A stretch of DNA of 30,712 nucleotides from a virus: positions 1 to 30,712 of IMG/VR virus record IMGVR_UViG_3300021142_000124. One strand, written 5' to 3'. Positions 8,243-22,378 of this stretch are shown in pieces (position 1 is the stretch's first letter; the number at the start of each line of letters is the position of its first letter). The translations under genes were made by a program, and so were the position numbers. The notes beneath the pieces were generated by a model. That model saw nothing but the letters and a program-made list of their open reading frames with translations, was not told where the DNA came from and searched no databases.

Positions 8243-8316
8243 TGGCTGGGGGACTAGGATTCGAACCTAGATTGACGGGATCAAAACCCGTAGACCTGCC
8301 TTTAGTCGATCCCCCA
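8243..8316 (-). tRNA. tRNA-Gln (anticodon UUG)
   Basis: The minus strand folds into a full tRNA. The acceptor stem TGGGGGA pairs with TCCCCCA. The D arm is GAC...GTC. The anticodon stem ACGGG/CCCGT has loop TTTTGAT, giving anticodon TTG. The T arm is CTAGG-TTCGAAT-CCTAG. The 3' end GCCA is encoded, with discriminator G as in bacterial tRNA-Gln. The total is 74 nt with a short D loop. It starts two bases after the stop of the RecE-like gene and is thus probably cut from the same transcript. Phage tRNAs usually supplement codons that the phage uses more than the host (here CAA), or replace host tRNAs cut by defence nucleases. Confidence 0.95.
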
Positions 8317-10451: not shown

Positions 10452-10616
10452 TCAATGCAGGGAGCTATGCTCAACCTGTTTGAGATCGCTCAATGTCGAG
10501 TTCAACGATATCACAACCATCCGAGCCAGAGCAACAGGATCTTCAACTCTGTACATCAGATCGCCTAGAAGAGCGACTGACAGACTTGCGGCTTCGTGAA
10601 CCTGGCTTGCGTTCAT
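10452..10616 (-). CDS. Hypothetical protein (54 aa)
   Basis: The frame is open from 10769, but most of that part overlaps the RHH gene in another frame; the ATG at 10616 is the more likely start. The product (MNASQVHEAASLSVALLGDL, then EDPVALARMVVISLNSTLSD) is a regular pair of amphipathic helices. It overlaps the last 74 nt of the RHH gene and is followed after 27 nt by the terminator. No family is recognised and the ribosome-binding site is poor. Confidence 0.45.
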   Translation of the reverse strand: MNASQVHEAASLSVALLGDLMYRVEDPVALARMVVISLNSTLSDLKQVEHSSLH

Positions 10617-10878
10617 ATCCACTGACGTTGTTATCTTGTAGAAGTCTCTGCAAGAGTTCGCGAATTCTAGGTTCGTTACTTGTCTTGAGTTCCTCGTAAA
10701 CAGTTTCATCATCCAGTCCTTGAAGGAAGTATTTGAGGCCATTTGTTTTCTCGAAAAGGTGTCTGTCAAGGATGTAGAAGATAACTGAACTGACCGTCAT
10801 GTGGTTCTGGTCAGAAATCTCCTTGATCCGCTCGTAGAGTACCATCGGCACTCTCATGTTTACTGCTTTATAGTCCAC
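10543..10878 (-). CDS. Ribbon-helix-helix DNA-binding protein
   Basis: Starting at the GTG at 10878 (GGAAGG six bases before it, inside the end of thyX), the 111-residue product has an Arc/CopG-like segment, VNMRVPMVLYERIKEISDQN and HMTVSSVIFYILDRHLF, i.e. a beta strand followed by two helices. The rest is a helical middle part (DDETVYEELKTSNEPRIREL) and a basic Arg/Ser-rich tail (GSRSRKSVSRSSRR). It is probably a DNA-binding regulator of phage transcription; the operator is unknown. An ATG at 10857 is an alternative start. The arginine-serine tail is unusual and could bind nucleic acid non-specifically. Confidence 0.7.
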   Translation of the reverse strand: MDYKAVNMRVPMVLYERIKEISDQNHMTVSSVIFYILDRHLFEKTNGLKYFLQGLDDETVYEELKTSNEPRIRELLQRLLQDNNVSGYERKPGSRSRKSVSRSSRRSDVQS

Positions 10879-11515
10879 GGAGTGCCTTCCAGCTTTCAGG
10901 AAAAAGAACGGACATATATTTCTCAATCTCTCTGGCAACTTCAGCCGTTTCCCTCTGTGCGTGAGGGTCAAGACGTTGATTGCACACCCGAGCGAAGAAA
11001 TAGAGTGAGCCAGTCCATATCCATGTCGTTTCCGTACAGAGCGGCAGGATAGCTCTGGCTTGTTCTGGGCATACGCCTAACATCAGCAGGTCGTTATAGA
11101 GCAGATAAACACGATCCATTGTGTCGGCTATCTGACTTGATAAAGCCGTGTCTACGGTTATGCAGTCATCACTAGATCCCTGCTTCACATTCTCTGCGCG
11201 TTTACGCCATTTCTTAGGCATATCAAACACAGGGGGCGTATCTACATATCTTCTTGAGACTTCGTTGACTGAGCCTCCCATCTGATGCTTTGCAAGTTGC
11301 CTAGCCACATAGATTGGCATCGTGACTCTAAAGCTGGCGGTTGCATGAGTGAACGGAGTCCAGTGCTTGTTCCTAGCAAGATAGCTTATTAAAGACTTAT
11401 CCCGTTCACTTAAATTGCCTTCATCATCTAAGTAAGAAGTTTTATCAAAGCTGACTCTGGCTGAGTTCACAACAGACAGGTCGTTTCCAGAATGGTCTAG
11501 CAAATCTACTCTCAC
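10868..11515 (-). CDS. thyX: Flavin-dependent thymidylate synthase ThyX
   Basis: The 215-residue protein is a complete ThyX, which makes dTMP from dUMP with FAD, NADPH and methylene-tetrahydrofolate. HWTPFTHATASFRVTMPIYV and ARQLAKHQMGGSVNEVSRRY (about residues 51-90) hold the ThyX motif; the classic RHR triad reads KHQ here, a variant that I recall in other phage enzymes. The C-terminal helices carry ARAILPLCTETTWIWTGSLY, which contains active-site-lining residues. It starts with GTG, coupled to the previous gene by a GTGA overlap and preceded by GAGGA. It supplies dTTP for phage DNA synthesis. Confidence 0.93.
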   Translation of the reverse strand: MRVDLLDHSGNDLSVVNSARVSFDKTSYLDDEGNLSERDKSLISYLARNKHWTPFTHATASFRVTMPIYVARQLAKHQMGGSVNEVSRRYVDTPPVFDMPKKWRKRAENVKQGSSDDCITVDTALSSQIADTMDRVYLLYNDLLMLGVCPEQARAILPLCTETTWIWTGSLYFFARVCNQRLDPHAQRETAEVAREIEKYMSVLFPESWKALRGL

Positions 11516-13115: not shown

Positions 13116-13523
13116 ATGGCAACAAAAAGAACGTGGCAATACTCTAGGATTGGAAAAATTTATGAGTTCTCAGCAGCTCATCATCTTCCAAGAACAAAAG
13201 ACACTCATCCATGCCATCGAATGCATGGTCACAATTACGTTGTTGAGATTGAAGTCAGGGGCGATACATTTGAGCCAAATGGATTTTGCTCTGGCGTTGA
13301 TTTCAAAGATATAGACAAGCGTGTTAAGCCGCTGATAGATCAGTTGGATCATCAAATATTAAATGACTTTATTGACAATCCCACGGCAGAAAACATTGCT
13401 CAATGGTTTATTGATCGTTTAGCCCCAACTTATGTTTATAGCGTAAAAATATGGGAAACCAATAAATGCTGGGCTATGGCAGTTAATCCTGATGGTCTTT
13501 ATCACGCGGTACACAAAGAATGA
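13116..13523 (+). CDS. queD: QueD, 6-carboxy-tetrahydropterin synthase
   Basis: A 135-residue member of the 6-pyruvoyl-tetrahydropterin synthase family. The zinc histidines are present in FSAAHHL (H22) and MHGHNY (H37, H39), the catalytic Cys in HPCHRMHGHN (C33), and the family motifs GVDFKDIDKRVK, QLDHQILND, NPTAENIAQWF and IWETNKCWA follow. QueD turns dihydroneopterin triphosphate into 6-carboxy-tetrahydropterin, the second committed step to the 7-deazaguanines preQ0 and preQ1. In phages such genes serve DNA base modification. AAGGAG precedes the ATG. The next gene, overlapping by ATGA, is DpdA-like, which fits that role. FolE, QueE and QueC are not in the window and may come from the host or from outside it. 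Confidence 0.92.
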   Translation: MATKRTWQYSRIGKIYEFSAAHHLPRTKDTHPCHRMHGHNYVVEIEVRGDTFEPNGFCSGVDFKDIDKRVKPLIDQLDHQILNDFIDNPTAENIAQWFIDRLAPTYVYSVKIWETNKCWAMAVNPDGLYHAVHKE

Positions 13524-14257
13524 TTCATTATCACGGAACCCCAATATCTGGATCTGACCCTGAGAAATTTTTGATGGGTCGCCATGCGCTTGTCCCATTC
13601 ATGTACCCACTTCATCTTGAAGCGGTGATGGAATGCTGCCAATCTTTTGTTTTGGACAACTCAGCCTTCAGTTACTGGAGAAAAGGAGGGGCATTAGATG
13701 TCGATGCGTATTATAGGTGGGTAAAGTCTCTTGAAGGTCATCCCGGTCTTGATTGGTGCTTGATTCCAGACAAGATTGACGGAGATGAAAAAGACAATAT
13801 GAGAATGATCCAAGACTGGAGAAACAAAAGACTAAAGGTTAAGTCTGTTCCGGTATGGCATTTACATGAAAGCCTAGAGTATCTTGATTGGTTAATAGTG
13901 ACGTTTGATACTGTTGCTTTCGGGTCTAGCGGAGAATGGTCACATCCAGGCTCTAAAGCATGGTGGCTAAGAATGGAAGAGGCAATGAATGTTGCCTGTA
14001 ATGAAGAAGGAAAACCTAGAGCAAGGTTTCATGGGTTAAGAATGCTTGATCCTAGAATCTTTACGAAACTTCCATTTTCATCTGCCGATTCAACAAATGC
14101 CGGAGTTAATGCTGGTTCAACATCTAGATTTGGAATTTATATTCCTTCAACAGCCGGAAGAAGAGCTACGGTAATCGCTGATCGAATTGAGATGCACAAC
14201 TCTGCTCAATCCTGGGTAAGACCTCTTATTCAAGAAGATATGTTTGATGAATCATGA
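13520..14257 (+). CDS. DpdA-like 7-deazaguanine DNA transglycosylase (probable)
   Basis: A 245-residue protein with the look of a TGT-like TIM barrel: FVLDNSAFSYWRKGGALD (45-60), GLDWCLIPDKIDGDEKDN (76-93), SVPVWHLHESLEYLDWL (109-125), TVAFGSSGEWSHPGS (131-145), FHGLRMLDPRIFTKLPF (170-186) and SSADSTNAGVNAG (187-199). The alternation of short strands ending in Asp/Ser/His and helices fits the DpdA group of phage enzymes that swap guanine in DNA for preQ0-type bases. The adjacent queD, joined by ATGA, is the main support. It may instead be another TIM-barrel enzyme of the same pathway. No Cys4 zinc site is seen within it; the next small gene has one. Confidence 0.6.
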   Translation: MIHYHGTPISGSDPEKFLMGRHALVPFMYPLHLEAVMECCQSFVLDNSAFSYWRKGGALDVDAYYRWVKSLEGHPGLDWCLIPDKIDGDEKDNMRMIQDWRNKRLKVKSVPVWHLHESLEYLDWLIVTFDTVAFGSSGEWSHPGSKAWWLRMEEAMNVACNEEGKPRARFHGLRMLDPRIFTKLPFSSADSTNAGVNAGSTSRFGIYIPSTAGRRATVIADRIEMHNSAQSWVRPLIQEDMFDES

Positions 14258-14448
14258 AATGTACCTGTGGCTTAGAGATGCTATTTACTAGCAACCAAAT
14301 CAGCACCCCCAGAGGCGTGACTGTCTGGAAGATTCCGGCAACACTTGCTCCTATTAGGGTAGACACTAATCACTGTCCCTCCTGTGACAGGACAATAAGT
14401 CAAATCTACTCAGTGGAAACAGGTGAACTCATAAAAGAGGAGATATGA
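14254..14448 (+). CDS. Small zinc-ribbon protein
   Basis: A 64-residue protein with two Cys pairs, MKCTCGLEM and NHCPSCDRT, at about residues 3-5 and 45-48, a classic zinc ribbon. It overlaps the DpdA-like gene and the helicase gene by ATGA, so all are translated in series. TGT-fold enzymes normally bind one structural zinc; a separate zinc protein could be an accessory subunit of the DpdA-like enzyme. This is inference and no family is recognised. Confidence 0.6.
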   Translation: MKCTCGLEMLFTSNQISTPRGVTVWKIPATLAPIRVDTNHCPSCDRTISQIYSVETGELIKEEI

Positions 14449-16844
14449 AAGTCCAACTAAGAGACTACCAAGATCAGACCATACTGGAAGCAAAGAAGAT
14501 TCTACGATTAGGAAAGAAAAGGGTTCTGATCTATTCGCCAACTGGCTCGGGAAAGGGAGAATTAGCCGTTGCATTAGCGCAGATGGCAGCAGAGAAAGGA
14601 AAGAAAGTCCTGTTCCTTGTCCATAGAAAGGATCTTGTTAGGCAGCAATGGGAAAGATTCGCCAAGTACAAGATTTATCCAGGCATCCTCCAAGGTCAGA
14701 ACACTCACAGACCACATTCAGAAATAACTGTAGCGTCTATCCAGACCTTCTCATCTAGAAAGAAATTTGGATGGGTGTTTGATTTTGATCTGGTCATCAT
14801 TGATGAAGCGCATCTCTGCGGAGGCTCTGCTCAGTATCATGAGTTCATGAGGACTCATAACAACATGACTGTGCTTGGCTTGACCGCAACACCTTTCTCT
14901 AAAGGGCTAGGGCGTGAGTATCCTTGGGGGAAAGTATTTGAGGATATGGTGGTTGTATCAACGATTCAGGATCTCATAGATCGTGGGTTTCTGGTTGACT
15001 GTGAAATGTATGCTCCGTCTGAGCCAGATCTCAAAGGCGTGAAGATTGTGGCTGGAGACTATCATCAAAAGCAATTGGGTGCTGCGGTAGACAAACAAGA
15101 ACTGATTGGCGATATCGTTGAGCATTGGTTCAAGTTAGCAAATGGATTGCAAACCATCTGCTTTGCTACAAACATTGACCACTCAAGACATATTGTTGAG
15201 CAATTTCAGAGAAAGGGCGTGTCAGCAGAGCATCTGGATTGTTATTGTAAGGAAGACCAGAGAAACGAAGTCATTGACCGATTCAGGGCTGGAAAAATAC
15301 AGGTTCTTTCAAACGTATCTCTTTTTGCAGAAGGATTTGATGCACCTGAGACAGCTTGCATGATTCTAGCAAGACCTACCAGATCACTGATTCGATACAT
15401 TCAGATGGTTGGGAGAGTTTTAAGACCAGCAAAGGGGAAGACTTGCCTATCTAGAGGCACTAAGATACTTACAGATAAAGGGGAAGTAAGTATAGAGCAA
15501 ATCACACTTGACCATAAAGTCTGGGATGGGTACAATTTCGTTGAGCATAAAGGTGCTGTTTGCATGGGGATAAAAAAGGTTATCTCTTATGATGGAATTG
15601 TTGCTACACCAGATCACGAGGTTATGACTTATGACGGTTGGAAGAGGCTTGAGGAAGCGAAGGGTACTGGCAGACGGATCGTTGTCACCGGAATTAGTGG
15701 GAAACCAATACGGCTCTCTGACGATCATCTCTACAAATACCACAGGGAAGACGTTCAATCTATTGGTTCATGTGAGATGCGGGGATTGCGGAAAAGAGTC
15801 AATGAGCCGTTTTCACAATATGGTAAAAAGACCGAACACAAAAGCCTGTCAACATTGCAATCCGAGGAAGCCGATAACTGCTCCAGAATGGCTTTATGTA
15901 AGAACTCAAAGTCAAAAAGAACGCTGCGAAAATCCATCAAACAGAAATTACAAAAACTATGGAGCTCGTGGAATCCAATTCAAATTCAATGGAGTAAACG
16001 AAGCGGCAACTTGGATTATGGAAAATCTAGGAATACCAAAAGATCCAGAGGACTTTCAGTTAGACAGAATAGACAACAATGGACATTACGAGCCTGGGAA
16101 TCTGCGCTGGGCTACGGGATCGCTAAATTGTCAAAATTCGCGGAAATTCAAAGGTCATACACTGCGATTCGAGAAATTCCGACAGGAACACAAGGAAGTG
16201 AGATACGCCGACAGCACACTATATCGGTTGATATCAACAGGACTTTCATTCGATCAGATTGTGGAGAAATGGAATGCGAAATCCTTCAAACCGAAGGGGA
16301 AGTATGGGACATTCTCGATGCAGGTCCGTTGCAAAGATTCACAGCCAATGGAAGGCTAGTACACAATTGCGCTTTGGTACTTGACCACTCTGGTTCAGTC
16401 GCTAGACTAGGATTTCCTACTGACCCACTTCCTTTAGAACTAGATGACGGAAAAGCTGCGGAATCTAAGAACACCATGAAGACAGAGCCGACTACCAAGG
16501 TTTGTCCTAAGTGCAAGCACGTTACTCGATCAAGGCCAAAGGTCTGCAAGAAATGCGGCTACGAATTTGCGTTCCAAACACCGAAACCGGAAGGAATCCA
16601 ACATCAGGAAGGAAGCCTACAGAAGATCGTCAAGATGCCTCAAGAGGCGAAACAGAAGATTTATTCCGGTCTGGTGGCGTATGCGATCAAGAAAGGTTAT
16701 CAGTCAGGGTGGGTAAGCCATAAATATCGCAGGATAACCGGAGTGTGGCCCAAGGGATTAGATTATGTTGCAGGGCCAATTCCTGAATTTGTGCAAAAGA
16801 TCATCGTTTCAGAACAAATAAAATACTCAAAGAGGAGAGCATGA
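14445..16844 (+). CDS. SSL2/DEAH-type superfamily 2 helicase interrupted by an intein
   Basis: The 799-residue precursor contains a complete SF2 helicase: Q-motif region LRDYQD, Walker A SPTGSGKG (31-38), DEAH (120-123), TATP (147-150), FAEGFDAP (motif V) and QMVGRVLRP (motif VI, 320-328). Directly after GKT, residues 334-641 are an intein. The helicase resumes with CALVLDHSGSV and ends with a zinc ribbon (VCPKCKH, VCKKCGYEF) and a basic tail. The spliced product would be 491 residues, the usual size of such phage helicases, which unwind DNA in replication or repair. The gene is ATGA-coupled to its neighbours. Insertion at the ATP-binding arginine-finger motif is typical for inteins. Confidence 0.9.
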   Translation: MKVQLRDYQDQTILEAKKILRLGKKRVLIYSPTGSGKGELAVALAQMAAEKGKKVLFLVHRKDLVRQQWERFAKYKIYPGILQGQNTHRPHSEITVASIQTFSSRKKFGWVFDFDLVIIDEAHLCGGSAQYHEFMRTHNNMTVLGLTATPFSKGLGREYPWGKVFEDMVVVSTIQDLIDRGFLVDCEMYAPSEPDLKGVKIVAGDYHQKQLGAAVDKQELIGDIVEHWFKLANGLQTICFATNIDHSRHIVEQFQRKGVSAEHLDCYCKEDQRNEVIDRFRAGKIQVLSNVSLFAEGFDAPETACMILARPTRSLIRYIQMVGRVLRPAKGKTCLSRGTKILTDKGEVSIEQITLDHKVWDGYNFVEHKGAVCMGIKKVISYDGIVATPDHEVMTYDGWKRLEEAKGTGRRIVVTGISGKPIRLSDDHLYKYHREDVQSIGSCEMRGLRKRVNEPFSQYGKKTEHKSLSTLQSEEADNCSRMALCKNSKSKRTLRKSIKQKLQKLWSSWNPIQIQWSKRSGNLDYGKSRNTKRSRGLSVRQNRQQWTLRAWESALGYGIAKLSKFAEIQRSYTAIREIPTGTQGSEIRRQHTISVDINRTFIRSDCGEMECEILQTEGEVWDILDAGPLQRFTANGRLVHNCALVLDHSGSVARLGFPTDPLPLELDDGKAAESKNTMKTEPTTKVCPKCKHVTRSRPKVCKKCGYEFAFQTPKPEGIQHQEGSLQKIVKMPQEAKQKIYSGLVAYAIKKGYQSGWVSHKYRRITGVWPKGLDYVAGPIPEFVQKIIVSEQIKYSKRRA
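15444..16367 (+). mobile_element. Intein in the helicase (308 residues)
   Basis: The intein begins with Cys (block A, CLSRGTKILTDKGEVSIEQI) and has block B with TPDHEVMTYDGW (Thr 388, His 391 of the precursor). It ends with blocks F and G, VWDILDAGPLQRF and NGRLVHN, followed by Cys as the +1 extein residue. These are all residues needed for splicing. Between about 15680 and 16295 the intein frame encodes a Lys/Arg/Ser/Gln-rich stretch without recognisable domains. In the +1 frame the same DNA encodes an HNH endonuclease. The splicing domain without the insert would be about 110-150 residues, a mini-intein size. Confidence 0.9.
15631..16359 (+). CDS. HNH homing endonuclease nested out of frame inside the intein
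   Basis: In the +1 frame relative to the helicase/intein, a 242-residue protein is encoded. It has an N-terminal region of the common phage HNH type (ELVGNQYGSLTIIS), a zinc ribbon (C50-C53 and C73-C76: CGDC, CQHC), the segment NPSNRNYKNYGARGI and the nuclease core LDRIDNNGHYEPGNLRWAT (144-162), then a C-terminal DNA-binding part (KGHTLRF, STLYRLISTGLSFDQI). Its stop lies eight bases before the last intein codon. No ribosome-binding site is obvious before ATG 15631; a start after 15631 or a ribosomal frameshift is possible. The protein is convincing by motif, so the intein frame, not this one, is the overprinted frame here. Confidence 0.85.
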   Translation: MTVGRGLRKRRVLADGSLSPELVGNQYGSLTIISTNTTGKTFNLLVHVRCGDCGKESMSRFHNMVKRPNTKACQHCNPRKPITAPEWLYVRTQSQKERCENPSNRNYKNYGARGIQFKFNGVNEAATWIMENLGIPKDPEDFQLDRIDNNGHYEPGNLRWATGSLNCQNSRKFKGHTLRFEKFRQEHKEVRYADSTLYRLISTGLSFDQIVEKWNAKSFKPKGKYGTFSMQVRCKDSQPMEG

Positions 16845-18019
16845 ATTACTTGAGTGTATGCAGTGGCATCGAGGCAGCTACTGTGGCCTGGCATTCTTTA
16901 GGCTGGGAGCCAATAGGATTCTCAGAAATTGAGCCGTTTCCATCAGCGGTTCTGGAGCATCATTATCCTGATGTGCGTAATTTTGGCGATATGACACGTT
17001 ATAAGGAATGGAAAATCAATGAACCAATTGGATTGCTGGTCGGAGGAACGCCCTGCCAATCATTCTCAGTCGCAGGACTCAGAAAAGGACTGGACGACCC
17101 GCGTGGTAACTTGGCCCTTGTCTATTGCGGAATGCTTGACCATTTTCGACCGCAGTGGTTTGTCTGGGAAAATGTCCCCGGTGTCTTGTCAAGTAACGGA
17201 GGACGGGATTTTGGTTCCTTCCTCGGGGCGGTGGCAGAACTCGGCTATGGGTTCGCCTACCGAGTGCTTGACGCTCAGTACTTCGGAGTGGCCCAAAGAC
17301 GCCGCCGTGTGTTCGTTGTCGGATATCTTGGAGACTGGCGACCTGCCGCAGCGGTTCTTTTTGAGCGCGAAGGCTTGCGCCGGGATACTGCGCCGTGCAG
17401 AGAAAAGGGGGAAAGAGTTGCCCCCTGCGTTACAAACGGCCCTCCTTTCAGTCGCACAGGAAATGAGCGCGTAGAAGCGGAAGCAATGGTGGTTCAGCCA
17501 TTTGACGTAGCAAATTGCCTTACTCAGCGGATGCACAAGGGAATCAATACGACTGTCGATGAAGGTCAGACGCCTGTTTTGCAACCAATCGCTATACGCG
17601 AATCAGGCCAAGGTTATTGGATGGAGGATGACAAAGCAGGGACGTTACGCGCTGAAGGAGAGAACAGGCCGAGCAGACCTAGCCAAGTGTCTGCTTACGG
17701 AATCCCCGGCAACTGGATTGGTCGCGCACCCGAAAACGGCGGTAATGCGGTTGAACCAATGCACGATATTGCGCCGTGTGAAACAAAGACGTATGTTCAT
17801 GGTGTTGCAACATCAATGGCCGTTCGTCGCCTAACCCCCACCGAATGTGAACGGTTGCAGGGCTTTCCTGATGGCTATGCCAACATTCCTTGGCGCAACA
17901 AGGATGAATCCCCGGATGGCCCACGCTATAAGGCTTTAGGCAATAGCATGGCAGTTCCTTGCATGAACTGGATTGGCTCAAGAATAAATGAAGTACACAA
18001 CATTCTGAAAAACAAATGA
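16841..18019 (+). CDS. dcm: DNA (cytosine-5) methyltransferase
   Basis: A complete 392-residue C5-MTase with motifs in the standard order: I (SVCSGIEAAT, 5-14), IV (GGTPCQSFSVAG with catalytic Cys72), VI (ENV, 110-112), VIII (QRRRRVFVVG, 152-161), a variable target-recognition region of about 160 residues, IX (RRLTPTECERLQGFPDGY) and X (YKALGNSMAVP). It transfers methyl from SAM to cytosine in a sequence-specific site that cannot be read here. No partner restriction enzyme is encoded nearby, so it is an orphan phage methyltransferase, probably protecting phage DNA from host restriction. ATGA overlaps tie it to the helicase and to the next gene. Confidence 0.93.
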   Translation: MNYLSVCSGIEAATVAWHSLGWEPIGFSEIEPFPSAVLEHHYPDVRNFGDMTRYKEWKINEPIGLLVGGTPCQSFSVAGLRKGLDDPRGNLALVYCGMLDHFRPQWFVWENVPGVLSSNGGRDFGSFLGAVAELGYGFAYRVLDAQYFGVAQRRRRVFVVGYLGDWRPAAAVLFEREGLRRDTAPCREKGERVAPCVTNGPPFSRTGNERVEAEAMVVQPFDVANCLTQRMHKGINTTVDEGQTPVLQPIAIRESGQGYWMEDDKAGTLRAEGENRPSRPSQVSAYGIPGNWIGRAPENGGNAVEPMHDIAPCETKTYVHGVATSMAVRRLTPTECERLQGFPDGYANIPWRNKDESPDGPRYKALGNSMAVPCMNWIGSRINEVHNILKNK

Positions 18020-18411
18020 ACATTCAAGATATGTATGAACTGGAAGTTCTCGTAATCGGGAACATCCTTAACGATAGGAAACACTTGTCAGAAATAGCCG
18101 TTCTTCCAGAATACTTCTTTGATAACTCCTGTAGAGCCATTCTCAACTATGTGAGTGGGCATAAGGTCTACAATTTGTACGATATGTGCCTGGACTTGGA
18201 CATAAACTTTGAGTTGGCTGCAGAGCTGGCTACCAACTTTGTAGATAAAAAGACGTTCCAAGATTGCGTTATCAAGCTCCGTGGATACGCTGAACTCAGA
18301 ACCAGAGTCTATGATGAGATCGTTGCCGCGCAACACGCAATGGCGGGTGGCATTGATCCCATATCTGCGGGAAGCATATTGAAAAACAATCTAGGCAAAA
18401 TGATTGACTAA
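18016..18411 (+). CDS. Stand-alone DnaB N-terminal domain-like protein
   Basis: The 131-residue protein resembles the N-terminal helical domain of DnaB-type helicases: ELEVLVIGNILNDRKHLSEI, LPEYFFDNSCRAILNYV and a helical hairpin up to VYDEIVAAQHAMAGG. The RecA-like ATPase domain of DnaB is missing, and the next gene is unrelated. It could be a helicase loader or a decoy that binds host DnaB or primase; both are inference. Start and end overlap the adjacent genes (ATGA at 18016; 8 nt at 18404-18411). Confidence 0.65.
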   Translation: MNIQDMYELEVLVIGNILNDRKHLSEIAVLPEYFFDNSCRAILNYVSGHKVYNLYDMCLDLDINFELAAELATNFVDKKTFQDCVIKLRGYAELRTRVYDEIVAAQHAMAGGIDPISAGSILKNNLGKMID

Positions 18412-19971: not shown

Positions 19972-20313
19972 ATGTCCAATATGACTACTGATGAATTTAA
20001 TAGGGGGGCAGGGGCTACGGCTAAGAGGGTAGACTTCTCTTATGACCTGATGCACTCAGCACTGGGAGTCGCTTCAGAAGCAGGTGAGTTCACCACATCC
20101 GTAAAGGAGCACCTGATCTACGGCAAGCCACTCGATAAGGAGAATCTCAAGGAAGAACTCGGTGATCTCTTGTGGTTTATCAATCTAGCCTGTGATGTCC
20201 TTAACCTGGACTTGGGTGATGTCATGCAAGCAAACATCGATAAGCTGAAAAAGCGCTACCCAGAAAAGTATTCTGACGCAGATGCTCTCGCCAGGGCTGA
20301 CAAATCTGAGTAG
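19972..20313 (+). CDS. MazG-like nucleotide pyrophosphohydrolase
   Basis: A 113-residue single-domain member of the all-alpha NTP-PPase family. The metal-binding acids lie in GVASEAGEFTTSVKEHLIYG (E-x-G-E) and LKEELGDLLWFINLACDVLN (E-E-x-x-D). Such phage enzymes hydrolyse NTPs or dNTPs to the monophosphate, for pool cleaning or to lower (p)ppGpp signalling in the host. A G-run ribosome-binding site precedes the ATG. It is the last gene of the plus-strand operon, followed by the repeats and the terminator at 20404-20427. Confidence 0.88.
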   Translation: MSNMTTDEFNRGAGATAKRVDFSYDLMHSALGVASEAGEFTTSVKEHLIYGKPLDKENLKEELGDLLWFINLACDVLNLDLGDVMQANIDKLKKRYPEKYSDADALARADKSE

Positions 20314-20339
20314 ATTTTCACCGAAAAAGTTGGCGGTTT

Positions 20340-20399
20340 GCTATATAACAAGAGCGGATGCTATATAACAATGGCGTTTGCTATATCAGCCGATCTGAT
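20340..20399. repeat. Three iteron-like 20-bp repeats
   Basis: GCTATAT starts at 20340, 20360 and 20380, an exact 20-bp period. The first two copies share GCTATATAACAA; the third has GCTATATCAG. The bases before copies 1 and 3 also agree (TTTGCTATAT, with TGGCGG or TGGCG before). Spacing of about two helical turns is typical of iterons bound by plasmid initiator proteins. A RepL-like gene begins about 900 bp away, which supports an origin or control site; a simple operator is also possible. Confidence 0.6.
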
Positions 20400-20403
20400 G
20401 GAT

Positions 20404-20427
20404 GCCCCCGATTTTTGGGGGCTTTCC
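20404..20427 (+). terminator. Rho-independent terminator between convergent genes
   Basis: GCCCCC (20404-20409) pairs with GGGGGC (20417-20422) across a GATTTTT loop, followed by TTTCCTT. It lies about 90 bp after the MazG-like gene, in the gap where plus and minus genes converge. The T-run is short, so termination may be partial; on the minus strand the tail is weaker. Confidence 0.65.
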
Positions 20428-20438
20428 TTATGTATCGC

Positions 20439-20468
20439 TGTAAGGCCATGTAAGGCCGTATAAGCGAC
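20439..20468. repeat. Three 10-bp tandem repeats
   Basis: TGTAAGGCCA, TGTAAGGCCG and the weaker TATAAGCGAC follow each other with a 10-bp period, directly after the terminator and 46 bp before the end of the RHH-type gene. They may be a second set of protein-binding sites of the replicon-like region. Confidence 0.45.
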
Positions 20469-20514
20469 GATTATATTTCCCGCATATTGGTAGACCTCGC
20501 CTGGATTCGTGCCT

Positions 20515-20886
20515 CTAAAGCTTTTCTAGTAGCCTTTCCGCGTCTTCCCATGTCTCTGGTAGTGAAAACAAGGGTTTGCCGTGTTTAGCGTGTATCCGCT
20601 CCACTTCCCGAAGGATCAATCCTTCGATCCATTTACTACGCCCACGGATTGGCTTTATCAGCGAAATTGTTTCAGGGGCTAGCCTAAGATTGAGAATCAC
20701 TTTTTGTTGCTTTGGAGGCCTGTAGGCGCGTATCAATTCCGCAAGCTCCGCGTTAAGAGCCTTTTTCCGTGAGTGGATTTGTTCGCGTCTTTTTCGTTTG
20801 GCGGTCTTTGTTTTTGAACGTCTACCGAATTTTTTACGGATATCGTAGTTTGCCCACGATGCCCTTTTCTTTGGTGTATCTGTCAT
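20515..20886 (-). CDS. Basic protein with C-terminal ribbon-helix-helix-like domain
   Basis: A 123-residue protein. The first 55 residues are extremely basic (KKFGRRSKTKTAKRKRREQI). The later part, QQKVILNLRLAPETISLIKP and IRGRSKWIEGLILREVERIH, follows the beta-helix-helix order of RHH proteins ('V-L-LRL-PE', 'GRS-WIE-LI'). It is coupled by ATGA to the RepL-like gene upstream. It may be a DNA-binding partner of the initiator or a regulator of copy number; inference from order and context only. Confidence 0.6.
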   Translation of the reverse strand: MTDTPKKRASWANYDIRKKFGRRSKTKTAKRKRREQIHSRKKALNAELAELIRAYRPPKQQKVILNLRLAPETISLIKPIRGRSKWIEGLILREVERIHAKHGKPLFSLPETWEDAERLLEKL

Positions 20887-21308
20887 TGGTTTAATGATTC
20901 GATTGCCTTAACGTGGGTGCGTGGTTTGCCCTTCCATAGAATGTCGGGTGATATCTGATAGTGCTGATAGTCTTCCAAGGGAATCAGGATACCTTTAGAG
21001 ATTAGGCGCTTTATGCCCTTACAGACTTGTGACTGGTCCATTCCGATAGAATCGCTGATATCCTTTGGGCGTAGATATACGACATTCTCGAAGTTGGCGC
21101 GCTCTATGGAAAGCATGAAAAGGGTGTAACCCGTCTCACCTAATCCGCGTGTTTTTTGTACTAGGTTTGTTTGATTGATTAGCATAAATCCACTCTTTGA
21201 CCAGTTACTTGTTGATCTTGTCGTGTAGATGATTGGCGTTCCAGATATGATTTCACCTGTAGTGGGATCTACAAAATCGGATACAATATTAGTTCTAGGT
21301 TTTGGCAT
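20883..21308 (-). CDS. RepL-like winged-helix replication protein
   Basis: A 141-residue protein with the order seen in RepL-type plasmid initiators: DPTTGEIISGTPIIYTTRS, GFMLINQTNLVQKTRGLGET, a winged helix-turn-helix (LRPKDISDSIGMDQSQVCKG, IKRLISKGILIPLEDYQHYQ) and the diagnostic end ISPDILWKGKPRTH ('NP-L-W-GK---H' in the family). The protein would bind origin DNA. It is also conceivable that it is a phage transcription regulator built on the same fold. No strong ribosome-binding site is seen. The gene points towards the repeats at 20340-20468. Confidence 0.65.
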   Translation of the reverse strand: MPKPRTNIVSDFVDPTTGEIISGTPIIYTTRSTSNWSKSGFMLINQTNLVQKTRGLGETGYTLFMLSIERANFENVVYLRPKDISDSIGMDQSQVCKGIKRLISKGILIPLEDYQHYQISPDILWKGKPRTHVKAIESLNQ

Positions 21309-21369
21309 GCGTTATTAGTTTCTTAACAGATACAGAATAGACGGGTATAAAATCCTTATAAAACAATCA

Positions 21370-21397
21370 CTTATGAGGCTGTGGAAGGAATCATAAG
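21370..21397. repeat. Inverted repeat upstream of the RepL-like gene
   Basis: CTTATGA (21370-21376) and TCATAAG (21391-21397) form a perfect 7-bp inverted repeat with a 14-bp centre, about 60-90 bp before the RepL-like ATG. Placement and spacing suit an operator for autoregulation. The whole gap 21309-21504 otherwise holds only AT-rich sequence and the terminator at 21455-21479. Confidence 0.4.
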
Positions 21398-21454
21398 AGA
21401 TTAAAAGGATTATTAGTCCATTCTATAGCGTATGCCAGATACCGTCCAATGGAC

Positions 21455-21479
21455 AAAAAAAGCCCCGAATTAACGGGGC
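21455..21479 (-). terminator. Rho-independent terminator of the GP88-like unit
   Basis: On the minus strand, GCCCCG (21479-21474) pairs with CGGGGC (21467-21462) across TTAATT and is followed by seven T residues. It lies 26 bp after the last gene of the 22857-21505 block and separates it from the RepL-like gene. Confidence 0.85.
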
Positions 21480-21504
21480 AATGTGCATGGCACTAGAGAG
21501 AGAA

Positions 21505-21690
21505 TCATAATATGGCGTTACTATCAGCGCCATAAATTGTCTTTAACTTTGGTTCCTTGTCTGGCATTGCGCCATCCCAATTGCAATAGCTACATTCCCA
21601 CACGTTTTTAGTCACGTTCCAGATAATTGCAAGTTGCGAGCATATAGGACAATAGCCTGATCGCGTGTTAGGTGCGTCTAGATAATCCAT
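21505..21690 (-). CDS. Small zinc-ribbon protein
   Basis: A 61-residue protein with two CxxC pairs, SGYCPICSQL and WECSYCNWDG, about 20 residues apart, a typical zinc ribbon. The ATG at 21690 lies one base after the stop of the GP88-like gene, with GAGG six bases upstream; a longer frame from 21708 lacks such a site. Function unknown; the short size suggests a nucleic-acid- or protein-binding accessory. Confidence 0.6.
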   Translation of the reverse strand: MDYLDAPNTRSGYCPICSQLAIIWNVTKNVWECSYCNWDGAMPDKEPKLKTIYGADSNAIL

Positions 21691-21691
21691 G

Positions 21692-22378
21692 TTATGCCTC
21701 AACCACAAAACCCGAATAATCCTTTTTGGCTGGGCCTTTTGCTTTTAATCCAACAATAACCCCATCTGGATCAAGAAATCGCAAGTCGGAATTATCACCA
21801 TCAATGACGGGTCTACCTTGCCAATATGCGGGAAGATGGTCACGGAAGACCACGGCCATATTAAATTGATGTTTTACTGTTTGCGTATGCTTTCCACGGG
21901 ATAGGGTCAAATGGTAATTGTCTGGTGTGGAGCTACCTTCGATTTTGGTGTAATCATAAAACTGGATGCCCGGAAATGCTTCCATGATGTTGCGATGCCC
22001 AAGATGACGGATTTTTTCCCATCCGATGTCGCTTGTGCCATTCAATCGAATTGCTAAACGTGTTCCCATGCTATTTGCGAGCTTAATAGCCTTTTCTATG
22101 TCGCGATGAAGGTCGATCATGAATTGCTCGCGTTCTTCAAAGAATCGCACGGTCCTATTGATTCTTGCCAATTGTATAACGTTTGTTGATTCACCCTTTT
22201 TGATGATGCCACCTCTTCCCGCTTTGTTGAGGCATCCCGCCACGCATCCCGCATGTTCAGCCATTGGGCATGTCTGATAGCCTGATAAGTCAAATGGTGC
22301 AAGGTGAAGTACCGCTGTCAGATATCCTTGCGGAATAGATTTCTGGGTTTTTGGGTTTGATATGGTGAGCAATTTCAT
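21692..22378 (-). CDS. GP88-like protein (gene product 88 family)
   Basis: A 228-residue protein with the conserved opening of the mycobacteriophage GP88 family: PQGYLTAVLHLAPFDLSGYQ, TCPMAEHAGCVAGCLNKAGR, i.e. three Cys in a 'TCP-A--GC---C-N-AGR' pattern, followed by FFEEREQFMIDLHRDIEKAI, AIRLNGTSDIGWEKI and FYDYTKIEGSS. The family occurs in phages and plasmids and has no established function. The TIM-barrel-like alternation of strands and helices and the Cys cluster suggest a metal-dependent enzyme; this is a guess. AGGAGATAACAAA before the ATG is a strong ribosome-binding site shared by other genes of this phage. Confidence 0.7.
   Translation of the reverse strand: MKLLTISNPKTQKSIPQGYLTAVLHLAPFDLSGYQTCPMAEHAGCVAGCLNKAGRGGIIKKGESTNVIQLARINRTVRFFEEREQFMIDLHRDIEKAIKLANSMGTRLAIRLNGTSDIGWEKIRHLGHRNIMEAFPGIQFYDYTKIEGSSTPDNYHLTLSRGKHTQTVKHQFNMAVVFRDHLPAYWQGRPVIDGDNSDLRFLDPDGVIVGLKAKGPAKKDYSGFVVEA

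Follow-up and report, generated by a model that had tools for sequence, protein, structure and literature searches.

An exchangeable plasmid-type Rep gene lies in front of a lineage-conserved RHH-like gene in a phage genome fragment

The window, a stretch of 30,712 bases that makes up a whole IMG/VR virus record, carries a rep gene whose product, on sequence evidence, groups with the replication initiators of small plasmids. The origin layout of that plasmid family is missing from the window, and in a related phage a strongly divergent Rep stands in the same, nearly unchanged background. In our preferred reading, to which we assign a probability of about 0.5, Rep assists in initiating replication of the phage DNA, as an exchangeable plasmid-type initiator in front of an RHH-like gene that belongs to the core of the phage lineage. 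We favor this reading because the subset of window ORFs scanned yielded no recognizable primase, DNA polymerase or further initiator and because the family to which Rep is related consists of initiators. Given that the family origin layout is lacking and that no other plasmid-maintenance gene was found among the families searched, a swappable replication helper is likelier than plasmid life. The 2 genes would form a unit in a tailed, virulent-looking phage, the downstream RHH-like gene being a property of the phage lineage and the upstream rep an initiator gene of the small-plasmid Rep family that has been exchanged horizontally. The winged-helix Rep probably binds repeated sites on the phage DNA and assists host replication proteins in starting its synthesis in the infected cell; the RHH protein would be its operon partner and perhaps an autorepressor. 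Rep is not generally needed, since it is missing from relatives within the lineage in which the neighboring genes are the same.

The rep–RHH unit and its neighbors

The features of the locus are as follows (window positions, strand).

20336-20400, no strand: three direct repeats of ~20 bp with the near-palindromic core TTGCTATATAACAA, third copy degenerate
20404-20422, plus: terminator-like hairpin closing the plus-strand MazG operon
20439-20457, no strand: 10-bp tandem repeat TGTAAGGCCA, 1.9 copies, inferred candidate binding site of the RHH protein
20515-20886, minus: RHH-like basic DNA-binding protein, 123 aa, assigned from its sequence pattern; its start overlaps the rep stop by 4 nt
20883-21308, minus: Rep, 141 aa, winged-helix, relative of Col(MG828)/pJW1-type small-plasmid initiators (tblastn, hhalign, AF2 model)
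21328-21337, plus: AGATACAGAA, occurring once in the window; identical to the core of the plasmid origin box, in the opposite orientation to rep and 19 bp away from the rep start
21365-21402, no strand: AATCACTTATGA / TCATAAGAGATT, an imperfect inverted repeat of the rep leader, seen by reading the sequence itself
21462-21479, minus: terminator-like hairpin with T-run upstream of rep, at the end of the GP88-side minus-strand transcript
21505-21708, minus: small zinc-finger-like ORF adjoining the unit (Lar-like PHROG, weak, E = 0.0066)
21692-22378, minus: neighboring gene of the GP88 family (Pfam PF17338, E = 7e-36)

The original prediction described a RepL-like winged-helix protein. Homology to small-plasmid Reps extends over the full length, but the RepL label itself falls short, the match to Pfam RepL (PF05732; E = 0.0037) scoring 17.2 bits against a cut-off of 20.3; DnaD_N is likewise a sub-threshold match, and a Bartonella homologue reaches 29.8 bits against RepL. 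Searches of plasmids by tblastn returned 153 records (E down to 3e-7, 89% coverage), mostly with query coverage >80% and with 23-28% identity among the matches listed. By hhalign, residues 12-138 aligned to a profile of 5 family members, from which the window sequence had been left out, with a probability of 98.7 and E = 1.8e-16. The ORF is intact and has the conserved residues of the family, including the C-terminal WKG..H..A signature of plasmid initiators, in which W, K, G, H, and A are invariant. Homologues are encoded by plasmids of 1.4-5.5 kb, many of them 1.4-2.7 kb, and measure 140-150 aa in Col(MG828)-type plasmids and Selenomonas pJW1; in Col(MG828) plasmids of 1505 bp and 1454 bp, the Rep homologue is the single gene, in the sense of the single annotated one, since PLSDB gene tables are incomplete.

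The AF2 model of Rep (mean pLDDT 78.5) has a confident winged-helix (wHTH) core and a poor N-terminus. In a viral structure library, its closest matches included a phage protein named RepL (E = 9.3e-7) and replication proteins of crAss-like phages. The PDB comparison yielded ordinary wHTH regulators (MarR/CRP/CodY-like) with tied scores, which does not separate a regulator from an initiator, and initiator families absent from the PDB list fall outside what this comparison can exclude. Close relatives of Rep were found neither in viral contigs by single-protein search nor in the phage record collection, and a defence library gave no match; profile scans of genome contigs returned nothing with alignment A4 and three loci with alignment A2.

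Of the predicted RHH-type partner, the short operon with rep was borne out, while its RHH identity rests on sequence pattern: Pfam was silent on the window ORF, and RHH_1 was detected weakly in its homologues (E = 0.04, 14.2-14.4 bits against a cut-off of 20.5). The gene is conserved in relatives both with and without Rep. A second possible RHH protein, Arc-like, is encoded at 10543-10971 on the minus strand (Pfam E = 0.024, below cut-off). The GP88-like gene does adjoin the unit, as had been noted, and both bounding terminators were recovered, although the region holds no surplus of terminator-like sites (6 versus 4.0 ± 1.9); promoters show no excess there either (3 versus 8.3 expected). The unit had also been said to run against its surroundings, which holds for the left neighbors but not for the right side, where the zinc-finger-like ORF, GP88, and further ORFs are equally on the minus strand.

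Rep is exchanged in a fixed background

Contig 3300032675_001064 (L002/L016) encodes MazG, RHH, and helicase proteins that are 98%, 96%, and >99% identical to those of the window, and its 20-bp repeats are identical, against 29% identity of Rep over the aligned part. At the nucleotide level, identity is 50% in rep, 92% in the RHH gene with the intergenic stretch, and 98% in mazG. The L002 Rep matches the same plasmids as the window Rep, with E-values down to 2e-11. Its gene has an in-frame TGA at codon 30 (L002:94-99), near the contig end, which was read as W or X in the searches; thus, the L002 Rep may be broken or the TGA a sequence error.

Four further contigs keep MazG and the opposing RHH-like gene (3300025595_000005, 50,655 b; 3300002307_000107, 39,790 b; 3300027708_003636; and 3300028392_003073). 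Upstream of RHH, they have ASCH, GP88-like, and DnaN-like ORFs instead of Rep, and the Rep profile found no match in 3300025595_000005 and 3300002307_000107. The former, 50.7-kb contig appears to be a complete, circularly permuted genome, because its end genes adjoin in contig 3300032675_000196. The DnaN-like ORF in its variable locus (L043:11787-12350, minus strand) matches Pfam DNA_pol3_beta_2 with E = 6.7e-6, just below the cut-off. The three-copy array of 20-bp repeats occurs only in the 2 Rep-bearing phages, and part of the Rep-less relatives have a short TGCTATRTAA-like motif after mazG without the array.

Origin layout in the plasmid family and at the phage locus

We examined 28 replicons with this Rep, namely, plasmids, paPv11 (a circular 31.6-kb Arsenophonus element), three IMG/VR contigs, a Xenorhabdus contig, and a Chroococcus contig, which are not 28 independent cases, many of the enterobacterial entries being near relatives. 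A box resembling AGATACAGAAGGGG (11-14 of 14 positions; the motif was picked after inspection of plasmid sequences) lies on the rep strand 87-112 bp upstream of rep in all but the Chroococcus contig (27 of 28). Immediately before rep, 2 tandem iterons with 21-bp spacing are present in 27 of the 28 replicons, the exception being contig L041, and the pair is weaker in Selenomonas pJW1 and Oceanisphaera. A similar arrangement is known from pIGRK, whose origin has been dissected experimentally and requires a conserved region and iterons upstream of the winged-helix Rep gene (PMC6854812).

Upstream of the window rep, we found neither the box (best score 9/14 on the rep strand and 11/14 inverted, at −19) nor the 21-bp iteron pair (best 55% identity, no palindrome pair). 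The window locus is thus not a replicon of the known layout of the small-plasmid family, and the idea of a self-contained plasmid replicon is not supported. Nor do the repeats speak for it, being identical next to a 29% identical Rep and having loosely similar sequence at the corresponding position in Rep-less relatives. As for the inverted AGATACAGAA, shuffling the 300-bp leader 3000 times reproduced the exact 10-mer once, but a score of 11/14 was attained in 63 shuffles (2%); we therefore give it little weight as a hint and set it aside as a functional origin box. The imperfect inverted repeat in the leader is a possible operator.

The three iteron-like repeats that had been predicted are indeed there, with 20-bp spacing, as are the 10-bp tandem repeats. 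Allowing up to 2 mismatches, TTGCTATATAACAA matches 4 times in the window, with one match being the opposite-strand reading of a place already counted, where 0.18 matches would be expected; 100 shuffles never yielded as many as 4. The repeats sit downstream of both rep and RHH genes, whereas plasmids sharing this Rep have theirs upstream of rep. They are candidate Rep sites, and the exchange of Rep over unchanged repeats speaks against that role; however, both Reps have Gln at the iteron-tracking helix position, so that both might bind the same site.

This position, Gln94 of the window Rep and likewise chosen after inspection of plasmid sequences, covaries with the iteron half-site in the plasmid family: Asn occurs with GTTATC/GTTATG and His with GTTACC (four replicons), and the single Gln and single Thr replicons have GTTGAC and GTAGCG, respectively, a correlation counted without phylogenetic correction. 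Two replicons, those of Oceanisphaera and Selenomonas, are exceptions, with Asn but other half-sites, and L041 has Asn and no detected iterons; 6 plasmids added later, all with Asn, fit both the helix rule and the origin layout. Neither GTTGAC nor GTCAAC occurs within window positions 20301-21500. If one helix residue sets the choice of iteron, initiator specificity and incompatibility of very small plasmids become directly testable.

Among known systems, the small cryptic Col(MG828) plasmids and Selenomonas pJW1 share with the window a Rep homologous over its full length, but have the box and 2 21-bp iterons upstream, whereas the window adds an RHH-like partner. The pHW126/pIGRK family (PMC2831885, PMC6854812), likened here by description, also combines a wHTH Rep with ~20-bp repeats, although its conserved region and iterons precede rep, as in the Col(MG828)/pJW1 plasmids, and the window repeats follow it. 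Pfam RepL and the staphylococcal pSN2 family (PMC5703833) are represented by a small HTH initiator with a weak profile match to the window Rep, below the Pfam cut-off, and the origins are not comparable. RepL/oriL of bacteriophage P1 (PMC9948254), again likened by description, provides a phage-coded initiator of lytic replication, and P1 oriL lies inside its gene.

Lifestyle and alternative roles of Rep

No end repeats were found in the IMG/VR call or in our own check at 20-50 bases, and we regard the window as a fragment because relative contigs run on into genes for capsid, tail, and baseplate, which the window lacks. Phage_integrase, ParB_N, and HTH_3, the families searched, had no match in the window or in 3 relatives (G003, G007, and G008), and the sole AAA_31 (ParA-type) match, scoring below cut-off, spans 24 residues in the P-loop region of the helicase. 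The partition genes that had been proposed as a check were accordingly found neither in the window fragment nor in the 3 relatives, and the GC skew does not change sign at the locus, the skew being confounded by gene direction. The locus is a possible but unproven lytic origin.

A plasmid state of the phage is not supported. According to such a scenario, the locus would be a working plasmid-maintenance replicon, with either the 20-bp repeats or the inverted AGATACAGAA beside rep as the target of Rep and the RHH protein serving in copy number control or partition. The link of the protein to phage-plasmids is genuine: a close Rep homologue sits on paPv11, which is rich in phage genes (capsid, portal, and tail), and circular prophage elements have been reported in A. 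nasoniae (PMC7157526). However, paPv11 and 2 other phage contigs have the origin box upstream of Rep, unlike the window; other replication initiator genes are also annotated on paPv11, whose maintenance may therefore not depend on the Rep homologue; and ParB, integrase, and a CI-type (HTH_3) repressor were found in neither the window nor the apparently complete 50.7-kb relative. We thus consider a phage-plasmid distinctly unlikely. RepL serves as a marker of crAss-like phage-plasmids (PMC11652158), and crAss-like phages with repL resemble our case in having a RepL-type gene in a phage, with structural matches in the viral library, but the window shows no other plasmid gene. Such a gene is present here without the origin layout of its family, and its exchange or absence among relatives argues for an origin check before a phage-plasmid call, for which the origin signature of the plasmid family offers a simple test. 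That the lineage switches captured plasmid initiators while the RHH gene and repeats behind them stay fixed, escaping incompatibility with resident replicons and gaining a conditional plasmid-like stage, seems quite improbable to us.

The missing family origin and the generic MarR/CRP/CodY-like fold matches would equally suit a wHTH protein recruited from a plasmid initiator that now, together with RHH, only regulates phage genes. A precedent is SEN1990, a RepL-annotated winged-helix protein whose deletion had no effect on replication (PMC10655114), but the retained C-terminal WKG..H..A signature would be superfluous in a mere DNA-binding domain, and we rate a pure regulator as unlikely. The divergence of Rep in an otherwise 92-98% identical background could also reflect an arms race, in which Rep disturbs plasmids or phage-plasmids of its own family that share the host; in the pSN2 RepL family, incompatibility groups have been mapped to a short, variable segment (PMC5703833), but only 2 Rep alleles have been seen, and such a competitor is highly improbable. 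Finally, the different genes upstream of RHH in each relative and the in-frame TGA in L002 would fit a variable locus in which rep is a passenger or is decaying; against this, the ORF in the window is unbroken and retains the conserved residues of its family, and we judge this reading very improbable. The replication helper remains our preferred reading.

Several other genes of the window were recorded. The ResIII-type helicase (14445-16844, plus) contains a 308-residue intein-like insert at 15444-16367, with Cys at its start and His-Asn-Cys at its end, which the helicase of relative L009 lacks; a 242-aa ORF in another reading frame of the insert (15631-16359) resembles an HNH nuclease by eye, unconfirmed by Pfam. 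QueD and a queuine tRNA-ribosyltransferase-like gene lie side by side (13116-14257, plus), suggesting 7-deazaguanine DNA modification. A tRNA gene (8246-8316, minus; RF00005, 55.5 bits) is the only Rfam match in the window, and ThyX thymidylate synthase is encoded at 10868-11515 (minus; NCBIfam E = 5.6e-37). A 131-aa ORF (18016-18411, plus) with a weak match to the DnaB N-terminal domain, and without the helicase domain, is kept in all relatives.
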